From contig CAJWWH010000019.1 of the NCBI GenBank assembly GCA_913048545.1, forward strand, positions 1 through 19,696: DNA of 19,696 bases, read 5' to 3'. The translations under genes and the position numbers were made by a program. Position 1 is the stretch's first letter. Each line of letters opens with the position of its first letter. This document shows positions 7,572 through 19,696 of the stretch, piece after piece. The notes under the pieces are model-generated. The model saw nothing but the letters and a program-made list of their open reading frames with translations, was not told where the DNA came from and did not search any database. Source of the stretch: an uncultured Opitutia bacterium. Lineage in GTDB: Bacteria; Verrucomicrobiota; Verrucomicrobiae; Opitutales; MB11C04.

Positions 7572-10500
7572 TTGATTTATATTCCAAATTTGAACCTTCC
7601 ACTTACTAAAAACCCTTCAAATGATTTAGTCCGGTATTTTTTGCTGTTCACAATTCTGCTTGCCGCTCCTTTTGCGAGTTATTCAAATCCGTCTCTGAAA
7701 TGGACAACCCCCTACTCTACCAATGGAACAGTCTTCTCCTCTCCATCCATTGCGGATGATGGTACAGTGTATATCGGTTCCAACGATAACAAGTTACATG
7801 CGATCCACTCTGACGGAACTGCCAAGTGGACATTCAGCACCGGAGATTGGGTGGATTCCACCCCGGCAATCGGACCGGACGGAACGGTGTATGTAGGATC
7901 GTGGGATAATCAGATTTACGCAATTAACCCTTCCGATGGTACCAAGTTATGGGATTTCAATACCAGTAGCAGCGTTATTGCATCACCCTCAATCGGAGTG
8001 GATGGAAAGATATACTTTGGATCAAAAGATGATTTTTTCTACGCCCTTGAATCAAATGGTTCTCTCGCCTGGGAAGTTTACATTGGTAATCCAGTCTCTT
8101 CATCCGCTGCATTAGGTCAGGATGGAACAATCTATTTTGGGGATGAAAACGGCACATTTCATGCCCTTAATCAGGATGGCTCAACGAAATGGACCTACTT
8201 GGTGGATGAAGTTGCGGATGCAAATAAATCTATCCTTTCGTCTCCGGCAGTTGATCTTGTTGGTAATATATTCTTTGGATGCGGGAATGGATACTGCTAC
8301 TCAATTTCGGACAATGGAAACAGTGCATCATTGGCCTGGAAATACCAGACCGGTGACCGGGTGGATGCGTCTCCGGTGCTTGGCACCTCAAACGAAGTTT
8401 TTTTTGTATCCCGCGATGGATACCTCCGTTCAATTGACACCAGTACCGGTATCATTAACTGGGAAGTTTTTTGCGGAGATGTGTTTTACAGCTCGCCAGT
8501 GGTAGACTCAAATGGACGGGTTTATGTTATTGGATACACAGGATTTGGTGAAAACCATCTTTTTGCCTTTGATACAAATGGAAGCCTTGCCTGGGATACG
8601 AATAGCACATCTTCCCCTCTTTCCATTGGCGGACTCGTGGATTCCTCGCTTGCCCTTGACCAAAATGGAACACTTTTCTTTGGATGCTTTGATAATAAAG
8701 TGTATGCAGTCAATGTGGGTACAGGCTTGGCAGATAGTCCATGGCCACAGTTTAAGAGGGGAAATAATCGAAACGGGGCATGGCCAAGCTTTTTAGTTGA
8801 AGTTGGGCTGTCACCATCCGGGGCGGGTGAAGTGAATGGAAGTGGGATTTACAATCAAGGGGCAACCGCCACATTATCCGTAAGTTCAAATATAAATGAT
8901 GGTTATAGTTTTGGGTATTGGAGCGGAGACCAGGCGGGTTCATCTAATCCGCTGACCTTCGGGGTAAATTCCCATTTAAATATAACCGCAAATTTTAACC
9001 TTAATTCCTATTTACTCGAGGTAAACTCAGGTATTGGAGGAACAGCAACCGGAAGCACAAGCTTACCCCATGGCTCACTCGCTCCAATTAGCGCCTCAAC
9101 CAGCCCTGGGTATTCTTTTAGCGGATGGACGGGGGGTGGGATAACAGATGCTGCCGCACTGTCCACTACTGTCACTATGACCCAAGCGAGAACAGTGACG
9201 GCAAATTTCACTCCTAATTTATACGCTATTAATATTAATGTCTTACCCATAGGAGCAGGGACCGTAACCGGTGCTGGCAATTATAGCTATGGTAATTCGG
9301 TATCTCTCCAGGCAGCCCCGGACGCATCTCAGGGATATAACTTTTTGAATTGGAGTGGTTCTTCGGTCAGTTCAGATAACCCGTATAACTTTCAAGTTTA
9401 TTCCGATCTCAATCTGACTGCGAACTTTGCTCTGAATGCTTACAGTCTTACAGTGAATGCAGGGACCGGAGGAGTGGCGAGTGGAAGCACTAGCTCACCC
9501 CATGGTTCACTCGCTCCTATTAGTGCCACACCCCATTCTGGCTATTCTTTTGCCGGGTGGATCGGAGACGGCATTAGCGATCCATCTTCCCCTTCCACCA
9601 CAGTAAGTATGACGAAAGCACGAACGGTCGCCGCTTCTTTTTCACTCAATTCTTATCCGCTTACCCTGCTCGTGGACGATGGAGGAACAGTTTCTGGTGA
9701 CGGTAATTTTACCCACGGAACAAATGCACCGATTTTAGCAGTCCCCAATCATGGTTATTCGTTTACCGGCTGGACCGGTGACGGGATTACCGACCCCACC
9801 TCCGCATCCACCACCGTGCAAATGAATCAGACCCAAACAATTACGGCCAATTTTCAACTCAATACCTATGCGCTCTCCTTAAATTCAAGCACCGGCGGAT
9901 CAGTATCCGGAGATGGAAACTTTACCCACGGCAGCAGTGCTTCTATCGTGGCCACCCCTGCGGTTGGCTATTCTTTTAACGGATGGACCGGTGACGGGAT
10001 TGCCGACTCCACTTCTGCTTCCACTACTGTGAGTATGACGGAAGCACGTACCGCCTCAGTCACATTCTCGCTCAATTCCTATAATTTGAATATAATTTCA
10101 GAAGGGAACGGCACGGCCATAGGTGAGGGTAATTTTTCTTACAATTCACTCGCTCCTGTAAATGCTTTCCCTCAGTCGGGATATGTTTTCTTAAATTGGA
10201 CCGGCACCGGAATCACCGACCTTAATCAGTCCTCCACTACCGTCCTAATGAATCAGGACCGAAATGTGACCGTGCGATTTGGTGAAAAAACCTTATCCTC
10301 CACCCATTTGTTTATCTCTTCTATCCCGAGCAATGGAGGCACCACTTCAGGAGCAGGCAGTTATTCCTTGGACGAAAATGCGACTATTTCTGCTTCCCCT
10401 CTTCCGGGTTACTCCTTTTCTTCCTGGTCTGGAAGCGGAGTGGTGGATCCTCTCTCTGAGGAAACTAATATTATTATGGAAGAAGACCTTAATATTTCTG

Positions 10501-11477
10501 CTGTTTTTAGTCAAAATTCCTATAACCTTTTTTTGGCTTCAGGATCTGGGGGTAGTATATCCGGATCAGGTAGTTTCCAACACGGAACCAATGCCATTAT
10601 TTCAGCCTCTCCTTCCGAAGGGTATCTTTTTAACGGGTGGAAAGGAAACGGGGTTTCTTCTCCCTCTTCGCTCATCACCACCGTCAGCATGACCGAGACC
10701 CGTAATATTTCCGCTTTATTCACAAAAAAATTCTTCGCCCTTACCATTAATCCAACTGCTGGTGGAGCAGTAACCGGAGCTGGTTCCTACGCTTTCGGAT
10801 CGTCTCCTTCAATAACAGCCTTTCCGTTTGACGGTTATTCTTTCTCTTCATGGATCGGAAATGGAGTCACTAACTCACTTTCTTCGACCAGTACTGTAGC
10901 CATGAATCAAGACCGTAATATTTCTGCCTTATTCTCAATTAATTCTTATGATCTCGTTATCAATGCGGGTACCGGAGGTTCGGTTTCAGGTGCGGGTTCC
11001 TTCACTTTTGGATCAACTCCCTCAATCACAGCCAACCCCCTTGAGGGATACTCCTTCACATCCTGGACAGGTACTGGAATCAATAATTCCCTTTCCCCTA
11101 GCACTATTGTAACCATGAATCAGGACCAAAATGTCACTGCTTTATTTTCAAGAATTATGCTATCAAGCAAAATCCTCGCAGACGGACGCGAACACAATTG
11201 GTATGAAAGCATGTGGTTCGGAAGTTTTTACGAATCTGCCTCAGGTTGGTGCTATCATTCTGACCTTGGTTGGATTTATCCATATTTCTCCGAAAATTCA
11301 TTTTGGATCTGGTCCCCTGATTTAAAATGGCTTTGGATCAGCTCATCGACCTATACCAATTCATTTGCCTGGTCGGAAAATGAAAAAAACTGGATTTATT
11401 TGGATTTAAAAAATAGCTCAGGTCCACGAATTTATAGTTACGAAAAGACTGCCTGGCAGGGTTTTACCATCGAGTAA
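7572..11477 (+). CDS. giant secreted protein: PQQ-type propeller + 11 InlB-like repeats + Trp-rich C-terminus
   Basis: This 1301-residue protein has a signal peptide (hydrophobic core YFLLFTILLAAPFA, cleavage near SYS-N). Residues ~37-400 are a PQQ/pyrrolo-quinoline-type propeller whose blades repeat 'SSP.I..DGTVY.GS.D...YAi...G...W'. Residues ~408-1193 are eleven ~70-residue repeats of the divergent InlB B-repeat type: GG-x-V-x-G-x-G, then GYSF-x-x-W-x-G-x-G, then TTV-x-M, then a closing strand 'ANF' or 'ALF'. Residues ~1197-1301 are a Trp-rich domain with 11 Trp in about 105 residues. No LPxTG, transmembrane anchor or enzyme motif is seen, so an adhesion or surface-matrix role is inferred. 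There is no upstream ATG, so TTG at 7572 is the best start (a later TTG at 7641 would lose the basic part of the signal peptide). It follows the kinase gene by 15 bp and is probably in its operon. Confidence 0.85.
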   Translation: MIYIPNLNLPLTKNPSNDLVRYFLLFTILLAAPFASYSNPSLKWTTPYSTNGTVFSSPSIADDGTVYIGSNDNKLHAIHSDGTAKWTFSTGDWVDSTPAIGPDGTVYVGSWDNQIYAINPSDGTKLWDFNTSSSVIASPSIGVDGKIYFGSKDDFFYALESNGSLAWEVYIGNPVSSSAALGQDGTIYFGDENGTFHALNQDGSTKWTYLVDEVADANKSILSSPAVDLVGNIFFGCGNGYCYSISDNGNSASLAWKYQTGDRVDASPVLGTSNEVFFVSRDGYLRSIDTSTGIINWEVFCGDVFYSSPVVDSNGRVYVIGYTGFGENHLFAFDTNGSLAWDTNSTSSPLSIGGLVDSSLALDQNGTLFFGCFDNKVYAVNVGTGLADSPWPQFKRGNNRNGAWPSFLVEVGLSPSGAGEVNGSGIYNQGATATLSVSSNINDGYSFGYWSGDQAGSSNPLTFGVNSHLNITANFNLNSYLLEVNSGIGGTATGSTSLPHGSLAPISASTSPGYSFSGWTGGGITDAAALSTTVTMTQARTVTANFTPNLYAININVLPIGAGTVTGAGNYSYGNSVSLQAAPDASQGYNFLNWSGSSVSSDNPYNFQVYSDLNLTANFALNAYSLTVNAGTGGVASGSTSSPHGSLAPISATPHSGYSFAGWIGDGISDPSSPSTTVSMTKARTVAASFSLNSYPLTLLVDDGGTVSGDGNFTHGTNAPILAVPNHGYSFTGWTGDGITDPTSASTTVQMNQTQTITANFQLNTYALSLNSSTGGSVSGDGNFTHGSSASIVATPAVGYSFNGWTGDGIADSTSASTTVSMTEARTASVTFSLNSYNLNIISEGNGTAIGEGNFSYNSLAPVNAFPQSGYVFLNWTGTGITDLNQSSTTVLMNQDRNVTVRFGEKTLSSTHLFISSIPSNGGTTSGAGSYSLDENATISASPLPGYSFSSWSGSGVVDPLSEETNIIMEEDLNISAVFSQNSYNLFLASGSGGSISGSGSFQHGTNAIISASPSEGYLFNGWKGNGVSSPSSLITTVSMTETRNISALFTKKFFALTINPTAGGAVTGAGSYAFGSSPSITAFPFDGYSFSSWIGNGVTNSLSSTSTVAMNQDRNISALFSINSYDLVINAGTGGSVSGAGSFTFGSTPSITANPLEGYSFTSWTGTGINNSLSPSTIVTMNQDQNVTALFSRIMLSSKILADGREHNWYESMWFGSFYESASGWCYHSDLGWIYPYFSENSFWIWSPDLKWLWISSSTYTNSFAWSENEKNWIYLDLKNSSGPRIYSYEKTAWQGFTIE
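8793..11150 (+). repeat. eleven tandem ~210-bp coding repeats (InlB B-repeat-like)
   Basis: Eleven head-to-tail copies of a ~70-codon unit lie inside the giant secreted protein gene. Protein identity is strong at GYSF..W.G.G and TTV.M. There is higher-order structure: repeats 1 and 3 resemble each other, as do 2 and 4 (both carry PHGSLAPISA), so an earlier two-unit block was duplicated. Repeats 5 and 6 share GDGNFTHG, and 10 and 11 share the SPSITA/TPSITA segment. Copies are still close enough at the DNA level to recombine. Confidence 0.85.
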
Positions 11478-15341: not shown

Positions 15342-15944
15342 TTGAAAAATCCGATAAGACAAATTTACGATTGGACTCTCTCACTGGCAAAAAAGAAAAC
15401 ATCAAGTGCCTGGCTTGCGGTGCTTTCATTTGCGGAGGCAAGTTTCTTTCCAATCCCCCCCGATGTTTTACTCATTCCCCTTTGCTTAGGGGCATTGCGA
15501 AAAGCAGTTTATTTTGCCACAATTTGCTCGGTCGCATCGGTGTTGGGAGGACTGGCAGGGTATGCCATTGGCCATTTTGCCTGGGATGGATTACAGGAAT
15601 ATTTCTATCAGTATGTTCCGGGATTCACCAAAGAGAAATTTTCCCGCATTGCAGACTGGTATGAAGAATGGGGTTGGCCCCTTGTTTTCCTGGCCGGTTT
15701 TTCTCCGATTCCTTACAAAATTTTCACGATTGCCAGCGGAGTGTTAGGAATGGCACTTTTACCCTTTACCTTGGCTTCTGCAGTCAGTCGTTCTGGCCGC
15801 TTTTTTTTAGTCGCACTACTCATTTCTAAGTTCGGGGAACCGATGAAAGAATTAATCGATAAGCACTTCAATAAATTAGCACTCGCTTTCGGCCTTCTTT
15901 TAATCGGTGGTTTTTTAGTGCTGAAACTTTTGGTCAAACACTGA
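15342..15944 (+). CDS. YqaA-type membrane protein (VTT/DedA superfamily)
   Basis: An inner-membrane protein of 200 residues with about five hydrophobic segments (~24-50, 58-80, 112-135, 140-165, 178-197). The signature SFAEASFFPIPPDVLLIPL and the later VFLAGFSPIPYKIFTIASG with a conserved Arg (SRSGRFF) are characteristic of the YqaA branch of the VTT/SNARE-associated family. Relatives in the wider family act in membrane homeostasis and lipid scrambling; a specific role for this branch is not established. The start is TTG at 15342 (TTG AAA AAT), matching where homologues begin; no ATG precedes the conserved region. It follows hpt by 15 bases and ends 2 bases from the convergent thymidine kinase stop, so there is no room for a separate terminator. 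Confidence 0.88.
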   Translation: MKNPIRQIYDWTLSLAKKKTSSAWLAVLSFAEASFFPIPPDVLLIPLCLGALRKAVYFATICSVASVLGGLAGYAIGHFAWDGLQEYFYQYVPGFTKEKFSRIADWYEEWGWPLVFLAGFSPIPYKIFTIASGVLGMALLPFTLASAVSRSGRFFLVALLISKFGEPMKELIDKHFNKLALAFGLLLIGGFLVLKLLVKH

Positions 15945-15946
15945 CC

Positions 15947-16537
15947 TCACACCGCTCTTGTTCCGGTTTCTCCCCTGGTGAAACAACTCCGGCATAATGA
16001 AACATAACGTTCATTCCCCCCGATTTCGATCTGAGCCCCTTCCGTTTCCATATCTCCTGCCGCACTCACCCGTGCATTCATGATTGCCTTCTTACCACAG
16101 TGACAAACCGTTTTGATCTCCTTGATCTCATCGGCCCAGGCCATCAGGAATTTGCTTCCCTCAAAAACATCCCCTTTAAAATCGGTCCGTATTCCATAAG
16201 TCAGTACTGGAATCTCGGTAGTATCGACTATTTTGGTTAACTGTCTGACTTGAGCCTCGTTCAAAAATTGAGCCTCATCCACAAGAATACAATCCAGTTT
16301 CCCAGTTTCCTGCTCCTTTTGAACAAAGTCAAAAAGGTTGTCGTCCTCACTAAACGCATGGGCTTTTTTCTTAATCCCAATCCTCGAACTTATTAAACCC
16401 GTGCCCTCTCGGTTATCTAATTTTGCCGTAAAAAGAAGGGCCTTCATACCCCGCTCAAAATAGTTGTGATTGGCCTGAAGCAATGCGGTGGATTTTCCCG
16501 CATTCATAGAAGAGTAATGAAAATATAACTTTGCCAT
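15947..16537 (-). CDS. tdk: thymidine kinase (type II)
   Basis: The enzyme phosphorylates thymidine to dTMP in the salvage pathway. The phosphate-binding loop SSMNAGKST (9-17), the ILVDEAQFL segment with catalytic E88, and the zinc lasso with C145, C147, C182 and C185 (VCHCGKKA...CRSC) identify the bacterial tetrameric class. The length of 196 is typical. ATG start at 16537. It lies 42 bases downstream of the ABC-F gene on the same strand and is likely co-transcribed with it. Confidence 0.97.
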   Translation of the reverse strand: MAKLYFHYSSMNAGKSTALLQANHNYFERGMKALLFTAKLDNREGTGLISSRIGIKKKAHAFSEDDNLFDFVQKEQETGKLDCILVDEAQFLNEAQVRQLTKIVDTTEIPVLTYGIRTDFKGDVFEGSKFLMAWADEIKEIKTVCHCGKKAIMNARVSAAGDMETEGAQIEIGGNERYVSLCRSCFTRGETGTRAV

Positions 16538-16579: not shown

Positions 16580-18184
16580 TCAAACTTCTTCCGTTTTGAG
16601 CCTTTCCATATACTCGCTCACATTACAGGTAAGCATACGGGTTTTGTTGGGGGACACTTCCAGTACTTTTGTCACAACACTGTCCAAAAATGACCGGTCA
16701 TGACTCACAATCAATGCAGTTCCATCAAATATATTCAATGCCTCCTGAAGCACCTCCTTACTCCGAATGTCTAAGTGGTTAGTTGGCTCATCCATGATCA
16801 GGAAATTACATGGCTTCATTAAAAGCTTGGCTAAGGCCACCCGGTTACGCTCGCCACCGGACAACACAGAGGTTTTTTTAAATACATCATTTCCACTGAA
16901 AAGGAGGGCTCCCAGGGCGGCCCTCGGGTTCGCATCTGGATTGTCATGCAACTCCTCCTCCACCTCGGCTAGCACCTCGTTGTCCGGATTCAGCTCCTCA
17001 GCCTGATGCTGGGCAAAATATCCAATCACCGTATTGACCCCGACATCACGGGTTCCCTCCTGATAAGGTTCAACCCCTGCCAATATACGAGCCAGTGTTG
17101 ACTTACCGGCTCCATTCACTCCGACTACGGCAATACGGTCACCCTTTTCAATCCTCAGGTCCAATCCATTAAATACCTCCAAGTCACCATAAGCTTTTCG
17201 CAAACCTTCAATTTCAACTACCTTATGACTCGCTGGAGGAGAGGGAGGAAATCGGAAGTAAATTTTCTTTTCATCCGCCTCGGGTTTAACAATTTCCATT
17301 TTTTCCAACGCCTTGATACGGCTCTGCACCATGGCAGCTTTTTTAAGATTTGAACGAAATCGGTTTATAAATTCTTTTTCCTTTTCAATTTCCTTCTTTT
17401 GACTGACATGGGCTTTTCTCTGCCTTTCCTTACGGGCAGCACTTTCCTTTAAATAAAAACTGTAATTTCCTTTGTAATTAATCAAATCTCCAAACTTCAG
17501 CTCCATTGTCCGGTCGGTAACAGTTTCTAAAAAAGCACGGTCGTGGGAAATAACCAAAATTGCCCCCTGATAATGCTTCAAGTAATGCTCCAACCAGTTT
17601 TGAGCCACCACATCCAGGTGATTGGTGGGCTCATCCAGAATCAACAGGGATGGTCCCTGCAAGAGTAATTTACCCAAGGCAATCCTCATCTGCCACCCAC
17701 CAGAAAACTCCTCTAATTGGCGATCCATGTCTTCCTTTGAAAAACCCATCCCGGTAAAAACTTTATCCACCCGGGCGTTCATTTTTTCGGGTTCATAAGC
17801 AGCAAGTTGCTCTTCCCATGCACCCATCATATCAATTAAGTCATAAAATTCCTCTGTGTCCGGTTCCATTTCACCTAGTTCAATCTCCGCCTCATCAAGC
17901 TTTTTTTTAACCGCAATTGCATCTGAAAAAGCCTTGCCCGCCTCTTCCCGTAAAGTGCATCCGTCCGCTGAAATTCCGTCCTGAGGCAAATATCCAACCG
18001 TAGCATAGTCCGGTTTTTCCACACTTCCCGAATCGGGAGTCTCTTCGCCCATTAGCAAACGCAAAAGAGTGGTTTTACCGGAACCATTTGGGCCTGTTAT
18101 GGCAGTGAATCCCGATTGGAATGGGATGGATACTTCTCCTCCAAATGACTTGAAGTTGAGAACGTCTATCCTTACTAATCGCAT
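16580..18184 (-). CDS. ABC-F family ATPase with a chimeric N-terminus
   Basis: From Walker A onward this is a standard ABC-F protein, a soluble two-cassette ATPase of the class that acts on ribosomes. Cassette 1 has GPNGSGKTT (31-39), signature FSGGWQ (160-165) and Walker B LILDEPTNHLD (181-191). An ABC-F linker with KKAAMVQSRIKALEKME (281-297) follows. Cassette 2 has GVNGAGKST (355-363), LSGGE (441-445) and IMDEPTNHLD. Cassette 2 is preceded by the normal ABC-F start (LRKAYGDLEVFNGLDLRIEKGDR, ~328-350). Cassette 1 lacks its equivalent: residues 1-30 instead read like an SMC protein. The real ABC-F start, roughly 30-36 codons, is therefore probably missing, and the ATG at 18184 belongs to another gene. 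Subfamily (EttA, Uup, YbiT and so on) cannot be settled. It is co-directional with tdk. Confidence 0.9.
   Translation of the reverse strand: MRLVRIDVLNFKSFGGEVSIPFQSGFTAITGPNGSGKTTLLRLLMGEETPDSGSVEKPDYATVGYLPQDGISADGCTLREEAGKAFSDAIAVKKKLDEAEIELGEMEPDTEEFYDLIDMMGAWEEQLAAYEPEKMNARVDKVFTGMGFSKEDMDRQLEEFSGGWQMRIALGKLLLQGPSLLILDEPTNHLDVVAQNWLEHYLKHYQGAILVISHDRAFLETVTDRTMELKFGDLINYKGNYSFYLKESAARKERQRKAHVSQKKEIEKEKEFINRFRSNLKKAAMVQSRIKALEKMEIVKPEADEKKIYFRFPPSPPASHKVVEIEGLRKAYGDLEVFNGLDLRIEKGDRIAVVGVNGAGKSTLARILAGVEPYQEGTRDVGVNTVIGYFAQHQAEELNPDNEVLAEVEEELHDNPDANPRAALGALLFSGNDVFKKTSVLSGGERNRVALAKLLMKPCNFLIMDEPTNHLDIRSKEVLQEALNIFDGTALIVSHDRSFLDSVVTKVLEVSPNKTRMLTCNVSEYMERLKTEEV
18071..18094. other. probable chimeric junction at Walker A codons
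   Basis: Minus-strand codons for G31 to T38 (GPNGSGKT) are the last point compatible with both an SMC N-terminus (upstream side) and an ABC-F cassette (downstream side). SMC proteins continue SN after GSGK, whereas this one continues TTLLRLLMGEETPDSG, pure ABC-F. A conserved ~20-base stretch of this kind is a classic point for mis-joining two genomes. Confidence 0.75.
18074..18184 (-). CDS. SMC-family N-terminal fragment (rest of gene missing)
   Basis: The first 37 residues carry the hallmark of SMC/condensin ATPases: a short R-I-D-V-L strand, then NFKSFGG, then IPF, then GFTAITGPNGSGK. In SMC proteins 'FKSF...IPF..GFT.I.GPNGSGKSN' stands at the very N-terminus, as here. ABC-F proteins do not have this sequence. 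Two of its three isoleucines use ATA, like the nadB gene beyond it and unlike the bacterial genes to the left. The fragment would be the 5' end of an smc gene divergent from nadB. The 'NFKSFGG' style looks more archaeal than bacterial (impression only). Confidence 0.7.
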
Positions 18185-18356
18185 TTCCCGATCCCCAGAA
18201 AGCGGTTTTTTTCACCACTTCAGACGGGAAGCGGCTCTCGGTGGCATTATCAACATTGAGTATCAACGAGGGCGCAGCATGCCGATTAGTAGGGTTAATT
18301 GTAATCACCGTTTTTTTCTGCCAAGGTTCAATTCAGTGGGTCTTTTGGACCGATCA
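18185..18356. other. divergent intergenic region between the SMC-like start and nadB
   Basis: About 170 bp with no gene I can support. Minus-strand frames here are open but not protein-like. A plus-strand frame in phase with nadB is also open (alternative ATG at 18279 with GAGG 7 bases upstream), but homologues do not extend this far. Promoters for both divergent genes would have to be here; no clear -35/-10 or archaeal TATA/BRE element can be called with confidence. Confidence 0.5.
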
Positions 18357-19696
18357 ATGGAGAGCGTGCGTGGCATTGATTTCGATGTCGTGATTGTCGG
18401 TTCTGGTATCGCTGGATTGTTCACTGCACTGCGGTGCACGCAGAGGGGGCTAAGTGTACTGGTGGTTACAAAGAGCAGGATTGCATCATCTTCGACCAAT
18501 TGGGCTCAAGGGGGTATCGCTGCAGTTCTAGATGTGAATGACGAAAAGGCAATAGAAGCCCATGTCCTAGATACGATATCTTCTGGAAAGGGCCTCTGTG
18601 ACGAAGAAGTGGTTCGCTCAGTCGTGTCTGAAGCCGCCCACAGAATATCCGATCTGGTATCTTTTGGTGTGGGGTTCGATAGTGGGATTGACGGTTATCA
18701 CAAAGCAAGAGAAGGCGGCCACTCCGAGGCTAGAATTCTGCATTCCAAGGATCGAACGGGTGCGGAAATAGAGGGTGCGTTGGAAGCGGCGGCATCCGGA
18801 GAAGGGATGACAGGGCTCGTCATAAAGGAAGATTGGATGGCAATCGACATAATTCAGAAAAAGCATGAAGATCCATTATCCGGGATTTGCGGGATATGGT
18901 GTCTAAAGCCAGATGGGCTAGTGGAAACGATACGTGGATCTGCAGTAATACTTGCCACAGGAGGCTGCGGGATGCTGTATAATTCAACAACAAACCCCAC
19001 AATTGCAACGGGTGATGGCGTTGCAATGGCGTCAAGATGTGGTGCTGATATTCGCGATATGGAATTCGTACAATTCCACCCTACAGCATTAGAGGGTCAA
19101 GAACGACCTTTCCTTATCACTGAAGCGATGAGAGGGCATGGAGCGGTCTTGATGACTGTAGAAGACCACGTCAGATGGCGTAGGGAAGGTGGATTGGCCT
19201 CTGAATATTCATACATGAAGAAATACTCTCCAATGGGTAGTCTGGGGACTAGAGATGTGGTGGCAAGGGCGACTGACGCGGAGTTGAAGATGAGTGGTGA
19301 ATCGCATGTTTTGTTAGTAACCGAACATCTTGTTGAGGATTATTTGCGCGAGTCATTCCCGACAATATGCAAGCGTCTTGATGAACAGGGATTGATTCTT
19401 GGGCCGGATCCAATACCCGTTCGCCCTGCTGCACACTATCTTGTCGGGGGGATATCTGTCGATCGGTTTGGCAGAGGTCTGAAAGATGGAGAGGTCATTC
19501 CAGGCCTATATGCCATTGGAGAAACAGCCTGCACAGGCCTCCATGGTGCCAATCGTCTAGCTTCCAATAGTCTTCTTGAAGCGGTGGTTTTTGCTGAAAG
19601 ATGCTCGGAGCATGTGTCTGAATTCACCTCTGGGGCGAATAAAATCGAAGATATTCCTGATTGGAGAGCTGAGGGGCTGCCTGAGTTGATTGAGCA
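18357..19696 (+). CDS. nadB: L-aspartate oxidase, 3' end outside window
   Basis: A flavoprotein that oxidises L-aspartate to iminoaspartate for de novo NAD synthesis. The frame is open from ATG 18357 to the window edge (446 codons). The FAD-binding strand FDVVIVGSGIAG starts at residue 8; the NadB hallmark SSSTNWAQGGIAAVL follows. Then come VQFHPTAL and PFLITEAMRGHGA, GSLGTRDVVARA, RPAAHYLVGGI, and GLHGANRLASNSLLEAV. NadB rather than succinate dehydrogenase is favoured by AQGGIA, PAAHYLVGGI and the length. Roughly the last 70-90 residues are missing. ATG 18279 (26 codons earlier) is an alternative start with a better ribosome site, but it adds a non-conserved leader. Codon use is unlike the rest of the window: ATA 12, ATC 5, ATT 14. 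Confidence 0.93.
   Translation, partial: MESVRGIDFDVVIVGSGIAGLFTALRCTQRGLSVLVVTKSRIASSSTNWAQGGIAAVLDVNDEKAIEAHVLDTISSGKGLCDEEVVRSVVSEAAHRISDLVSFGVGFDSGIDGYHKAREGGHSEARILHSKDRTGAEIEGALEAAASGEGMTGLVIKEDWMAIDIIQKKHEDPLSGICGIWCLKPDGLVETIRGSAVILATGGCGMLYNSTTNPTIATGDGVAMASRCGADIRDMEFVQFHPTALEGQERPFLITEAMRGHGAVLMTVEDHVRWRREGGLASEYSYMKKYSPMGSLGTRDVVARATDAELKMSGESHVLLVTEHLVEDYLRESFPTICKRLDEQGLILGPDPIPVRPAAHYLVGGISVDRFGRGLKDGEVIPGLYAIGETACTGLHGANRLASNSLLEAVVFAERCSEHVSEFTSGANKIEDIPDWRAEGLPELIE

Follow-up and report, generated by a model that had tools for sequence, protein, structure and literature searches.

Chimeric nodes of the de Bruijn graph are one described origin of chimeras in metagenome assemblies (PMC8171044). 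In the part of that work drawn on here, the chimeric contigs join sequence of two organisms at a common stretch, as does the window (the whole 19,696-nt stretch of DNA that was analysed); however, they concern evolutionarily similar species, whereas the window appears to unite a bacterium with an archaeon through a conserved motif, with only ~17 shared bases. For chimeras formed during MDA, the excerpted part of PMC1855051 reports that more than 70% of the junctions were primed at 2 to 21 complementary bases and that 85% of the chimeras were inversions within one genome. The window resembles them in the short shared stretch of fitting size at its junction. Unlike most of them, it brings together two genomes in direct register. 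Mixtures of bacterial and archaeal DNA are also on record in marine data, which the window resembles in this respect: according to the excerpted part of PMC11247762, GUNC flagged ~11% of marine MAGs and 1% of SAGs, and one bacterial marine MAG contained a Thermoplasmatota-like contig. That example is a whole misbinned contig, whereas the join in the window lies inside a contig.

We consider it very probable that the contig analysed here is a technical chimera, made up of ~18.07 kb of DNA from an Opitutales-like member of the Verrucomicrobiota on the left and ~1.6 kb from a Poseidoniales-like marine archaeon on the right.

A reading frame with two kinds of ATPase sequence

The features on which the argument turns are the following.

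15342 to 15944, plus strand: membrane protein that we take to be YqaA/DedA-like, of the left lineage; 75 to 89% identity in eight of nine stretches
15947 to 16537, minus strand: thymidine kinase (PF00265), adjoining the ABC-F gene; a usual neighbour in the left lineage
16580 to 18184, minus strand: ABC-F-like ORF of 534 amino acids, reading MRLVRIDVLNFKSFGGEVSIPFQSGFTAITGPNGSGK followed by TTLLRLLMGEETPDSG...
16580 to 18090, minus strand: body of an ABC-F ATPase gene of Verrucomicrobiota (Opitutales type), residues ~33 to 534, its own first ~35 residues missing
18074 to 18090, minus strand: 17-base stretch CAAATGGTTCCGGTAAA holding the join; the relative G002 has it at the corresponding position of its ABC-F gene
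18074 to 18184, minus strand: first 37 codons of an archaeal-type smc, ending in the Walker A sequence GPNGSGK
18336 to 19696, plus strand: 5′ part of an archaeal-type nadB (L-aspartate oxidase), cut by the window end and divergent from the smc start

As a whole, the 534-residue ORF matched the ABC-F model NF000355 (412.6 bits vs. a cut-off of 380), and it contained the ABC_tran_Xtn linker (PF12848; 2.4e-25) and two PF00005 stretches, corresponding to two ABC cassettes. Residues 1 to 37 searched alone matched SMC_prok_A (TIGR02169; 6.8e-13) and SMC_prok_B (TIGR02168; 3.6e-10), both at the N termini of the models. The ORF thus has the start of an SMC N-terminal head up to Walker A (residues 1 to 37) and is ABC-F after K37. 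The SMC continuation, that is, GKSN followed by the coiled coils, the hinge and the C-terminal head, is absent from it, and so is the normal start of the first ABC-F cassette before Walker A (LAYG...DRIALVGSNGSGK). The frame stays open through the junction, and Walker A is kept intact.

In the same register, residues 1 to 32 agreed with the 120 listed SMC relatives at 22 to 32 of the 32 positions, vs. 4 to 6 for the 120 listed ABC-F relatives. Judged by these counts, the SMC-like start is far beyond chance. The original prediction, which had read residues 1 to 37 as an SMC N terminus and everything after K37 as ABC-F, described and located the odd gene correctly: its first part is borne out by the TIGR02169 and TIGR02168 matches and by two SMC proteins identical over these 37 residues, and its second part by NF000355, PF12848 and the alignment with the closest ABC-F protein (below).

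Relatives of the ABC-F part and of its neighbourhood

The ABC-F protein search scored 7994 relatives, chosen as the candidates sharing most words with the query, and listed the best 120. The best match, P0003, differed from the window at a single position in 502 residues (33 to 534), with Leu in the window and Ile in P0003 at position 280; P0004, whose source name is Opitutales bacterium, showed three differences over the same residues. Both proteins have the ordinary ABC-F start ...GPRDRIALVGSNGSGKTT, which is the same or nearly so in the other 15 of the 17 proteins aligned. The lead-in DR[IV]A[LI]VGxNGSGK was present in 116 of the 120 listed relatives, and the first Walker A was uniform (GSNGSGKT in 118 of 120). 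FKSFG occurred in the first 60 residues of none of the 120 listed out of the 7994 scored. Because of the P0003 and P0004 starts and these motif counts, we conclude that an intact, near-identical ABC-F copy without the SMC start exists. ABC-F homologues with an SMC-like start, which had been named beforehand as one part of the evidence that would refute a misassembly, were sought and not found among the 120 listed relatives; the proteins were clustered at 90% identity, and the P0003 cluster, with its 24 sequences, could hide a fusion copy.

The gene order on this side is that of the left lineage. A thymidine kinase gene lies beside the ABC-F gene in seven of nine stretches (L001, L116, L118, L119, L120, L122 and L123; not L117 or L121). 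Seven stretches extend at least 1.3 kb upstream of the ABC-F gene. In six of these (L001, L116, L117, L118, L120 and L121), a divergent open frame lies nearest, within 0.5 kb, whereas L119 has other genes there; the contigs of L122 and L123 end at this point and have no upstream DNA. The divergent frame, presumably with MORN-like repeats and a start of the lipoprotein type, usually adjoins the ABC-F gene in this lineage. Neither NadB nor SMC was matched in the nine ABC-F stretches (E ≤ 1e-10) or in 26 ABC-F loci of relatives (E ≤ 1e-3), two of which are the same place in TMED40 and some of which have little or no upstream DNA.

Relatives of the SMC start and of nadB

The SMC search was scored on residues 1 to 40 and returned 1397 proteins with E values up to 10, the best 120 of which were listed. 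By the tool's stated factors, it covered lengths of 439 to 1398 residues, so that another 534-residue fusion would have fitted; no second SMC-ABC-F fusion of this length was present among the 120 listed matches. P0243 and P0244, SMC proteins of 1293 residues, were identical to the window at 37 of 37 residues, and all 120 listed relatives shared at least 27 of the 37. Each of the 120 contains GPNGSGKSN, and none contains DEPTNHLD, the ABC-F signature, or continues as ABC-F. Organism names were attached to six of the 120 (P0317, P0324, P0343, P0344, P0348 and P0360), all of them archaeal: Poseidoniales, Thalassarchaeaceae or Euryarchaeota. The SMC scan of viral contigs yielded no loci. SMC_prok_A searched against TMED40 gave six matches, none above the family cut-off; because only 4 of 14 control genomes passed this cut-off, no weight was placed on the result.

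The nadB gene starts at GTG 18336 or ATG 18357. Its product was closest to P0123 (93% identity), followed by a match at 92% and three at 74%. Three of the 120 listed NadB matches carried organism names (P0180, P0183 and P0238; 61 to 62%), again all archaeal, the names being Marine Group II euryarchaeote, Thalassarchaeaceae archaeon and Thalassarchaeum. With P0123 as the query, we searched 177 genomes from the order to which TMED40 belongs, a selection out of a larger group. Matches were obtained in 144 of them, those listed at no more than 50% identity and the best full-length ones at 43 to 49%; the NadB piece of the window itself was 46 to 47% identical to four left-order NadB matches. By these values, the nadB in the window is foreign to the left lineage. 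The source of the right-hand segment appears archaeal-like, judging from named NadB and SMC relatives that are more distant than the closest matches.

A scan of genome contigs gave at least 80 loci and no archaeon among them; one belonged to a close bacterial relative (L001, from TMED40), and otherwise the scan found bacterial nadB. The NadB scan of viral contigs gave four loci at 33 to 42% identity. An archaeal smc-nadB neighbourhood was not found in a second genome in the genome-contig scan, with its at least 80 loci, or in the viral-contig scans. Reading from the window alone, smc and nadB would be divergent neighbours in the archaeal source.

The claim that the right-hand ~1.6 kb is foreign to the rest thus agrees with the SMC and NadB relatives when set against the left order. 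The relatives of the window also point to a marine origin. The composition check proposed along with that claim was run, and its outcome is suggestive only: GC content is 43.6% on the left vs. 49.1% on the right, and the right part stands at a tetranucleotide distance of 0.351 from the left, a value equalled or exceeded by 3 of 42 overlapping segments of the left part. These three all lie in the repeat-rich gene, at ~8.4 to 10.8 kb.

The junction at Walker A

On the evidence of sequence relatedness, two sources are joined in this contig: its halves differ in their closest relatives, and the switch from one to the other falls within a stretch encoding a motif common to the proteins of both parents. 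The ABC-F gene of G002, whose product is 92% identical to P0004, reads GTGGGGTCAAATGGTTCCGGTAAAACCACT where the window reads ACAGGCCCAAATGGTTCCGGTAAAACCACT. The two agree from CAAATGGTTCCGGTAAA onward. To the left of this 17-mer, the window encodes SMC residues, with P32 encoded by CCA vs. Ser by TCA in the ABC-F relative. Because of this agreement on one side and the SMC residues on the other, the switch can be assigned to positions 18074 to 18090; since the final residues, NGSGK, are common to both parents, it can be placed anywhere in this interval. The original prediction that genes of two genomes meet within the bases encoding Walker A is upheld, and the join is narrowed accordingly.

The 17-mer occurred in 3 of the 177 genomes of the left part's order: at the junction site in G002, in Walker A of another ABC ATPase in G091, and at a place other than Walker A in G165. 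In the other close relatives, the motif is unchanged as protein but spelled with synonymous base differences, so that G002 is the only close relative with the exact 17-mer, which is presumably also what the left parent itself had at this site. On the SMC side, the shared stretch is seen only at the protein level, where all 120 listed relatives have PNGSGK. With the archaeal bases deduced from it, the overlap would be ~17 bases, or 18 should the serine codon that follows in the archaeon start with A. For genomes of 2.5 and 2.0 Mb and equal base frequencies, a simple formula gives ~580 17-mers and about two 21-mers shared by chance.

Origin of the join

The archaeal smc and the bacterial ABC-F gene probably share these ~17 identical bases for the P-loop (P)NGSGK and would have been joined there. 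With the same motif in the same register in both genes, the product would be an in-frame join resembling one gene. We infer that the join is technical and was made outside a cell, because both halves are near-identical to intact proteins, the fusion was found in no listed relative of either side, the join falls in a short shared motif, and the junction lies 1.6 kb from the window end. The assembler may be responsible for it, or else a molecule or read that became chimeric during amplification or library preparation. Possible causes thus include a chimeric molecule, an error in a read, and a step of merging or gap filling. A misassembly had been put forward as the simplest explanation, with natural recombination as less likely. 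The lack of a fusion among the 240 listed relatives favors a technical join of this kind, of which the assembler specifically is one of two technical causes. The smallest k of the usual short-read assemblers is ~20 to 21. A plain exact k-mer join is thus not fully accounted for, because an overlap of ~17 bases falls short of it; such a join with k of at least 21 was considered and is not directly supported by a deduced overlap of 17 or 18 bases.

A recent natural transfer would place the same event in a cell, with archaeal smc-nadB DNA recombining into the Verrucomicrobiota ABC-F gene via the shared P-loop bases and giving a real in-frame fusion, expressed as an SMC-ABC-F hybrid ATPase. The reading frame across the junction is open, as this requires, and so short an identity might serve as a recombination site. 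However, the fusion was seen in none of the 120 ABC-F and none of the 120 SMC relatives that were listed, and an intact ABC-F protein with one difference exists in P0003. Moreover, the identity of the SMC part to an archaeal-type protein at all 37 residues would make the event very recent, and the window shows the foreign segment at one end only. We regard a natural transfer as very unlikely.

Less likely still, to the point of being hardly credible, is a functional, domain-swapped family of ABC-F proteins whose first cassette has an SMC-type start. The ATP-binding folds of SMC and ABC-F proteins are related, and Walker A is intact through the in-frame join, but no second member was present among the 240 listed ABC-F and SMC proteins (clusters at 90% identity). 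Just as negligible is an ordinary ABC-F gene with a normally variable N terminus and no chimera, which has nothing in its favor beyond the shared NGSGKT and is refuted by the matches of residues 1 to 32 (4 to 6 of 32 for ABC-F, 22 to 32 for SMC); the archaeal type of the adjoining nadB and the uniform first Walker A of the relatives also speak against it.

With a technical join as the preferred explanation, the hybrid gene is almost certainly an artefact and no new protein. It provides a worked case of a conserved P-loop fusing bacterial and archaeal DNA in frame, a join that looks like a single plausible gene to gene callers and to searches with the whole protein. Taken at face value, the window would suggest that nadB had been transferred between domains and that SMC and ABC-F form a new fusion. 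Before annotation or binning, the contig should be split at 18074 to 18090, and the hybrid should not enter the annotation as a real gene.

Further observations on the left-hand lineage

The contigs of two close relatives (L087/L122, G002:C156; L099/L123, G150:C104) break off within the 5′ end of their copy of this ABC-F gene, the former 82 bases before the 17-mer and the latter at residue 74, which may mean that assembly of this region was difficult in G002 and G150 as well.

The left side of the window shows synteny with TMED40 (L001): the genes and their order agree from the ABC-F and thymidine kinase genes through a large repeat-bearing ORF. The one stretch in which the YqaA/DedA-like gene was not seen is L119, whose contig ends before its place. 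The repeat-bearing ORF of the window (7572 to 11477) encodes 1301 residues with many GYSFxGWxGxG repeats; at the matching place in TMED40 (L001, 11690 to 17179), repeats of this kind also occur in a 1829-residue ORF, where they follow a start that we take to be sulfatase-like. This difference suggests an exchange of the N-terminal module.
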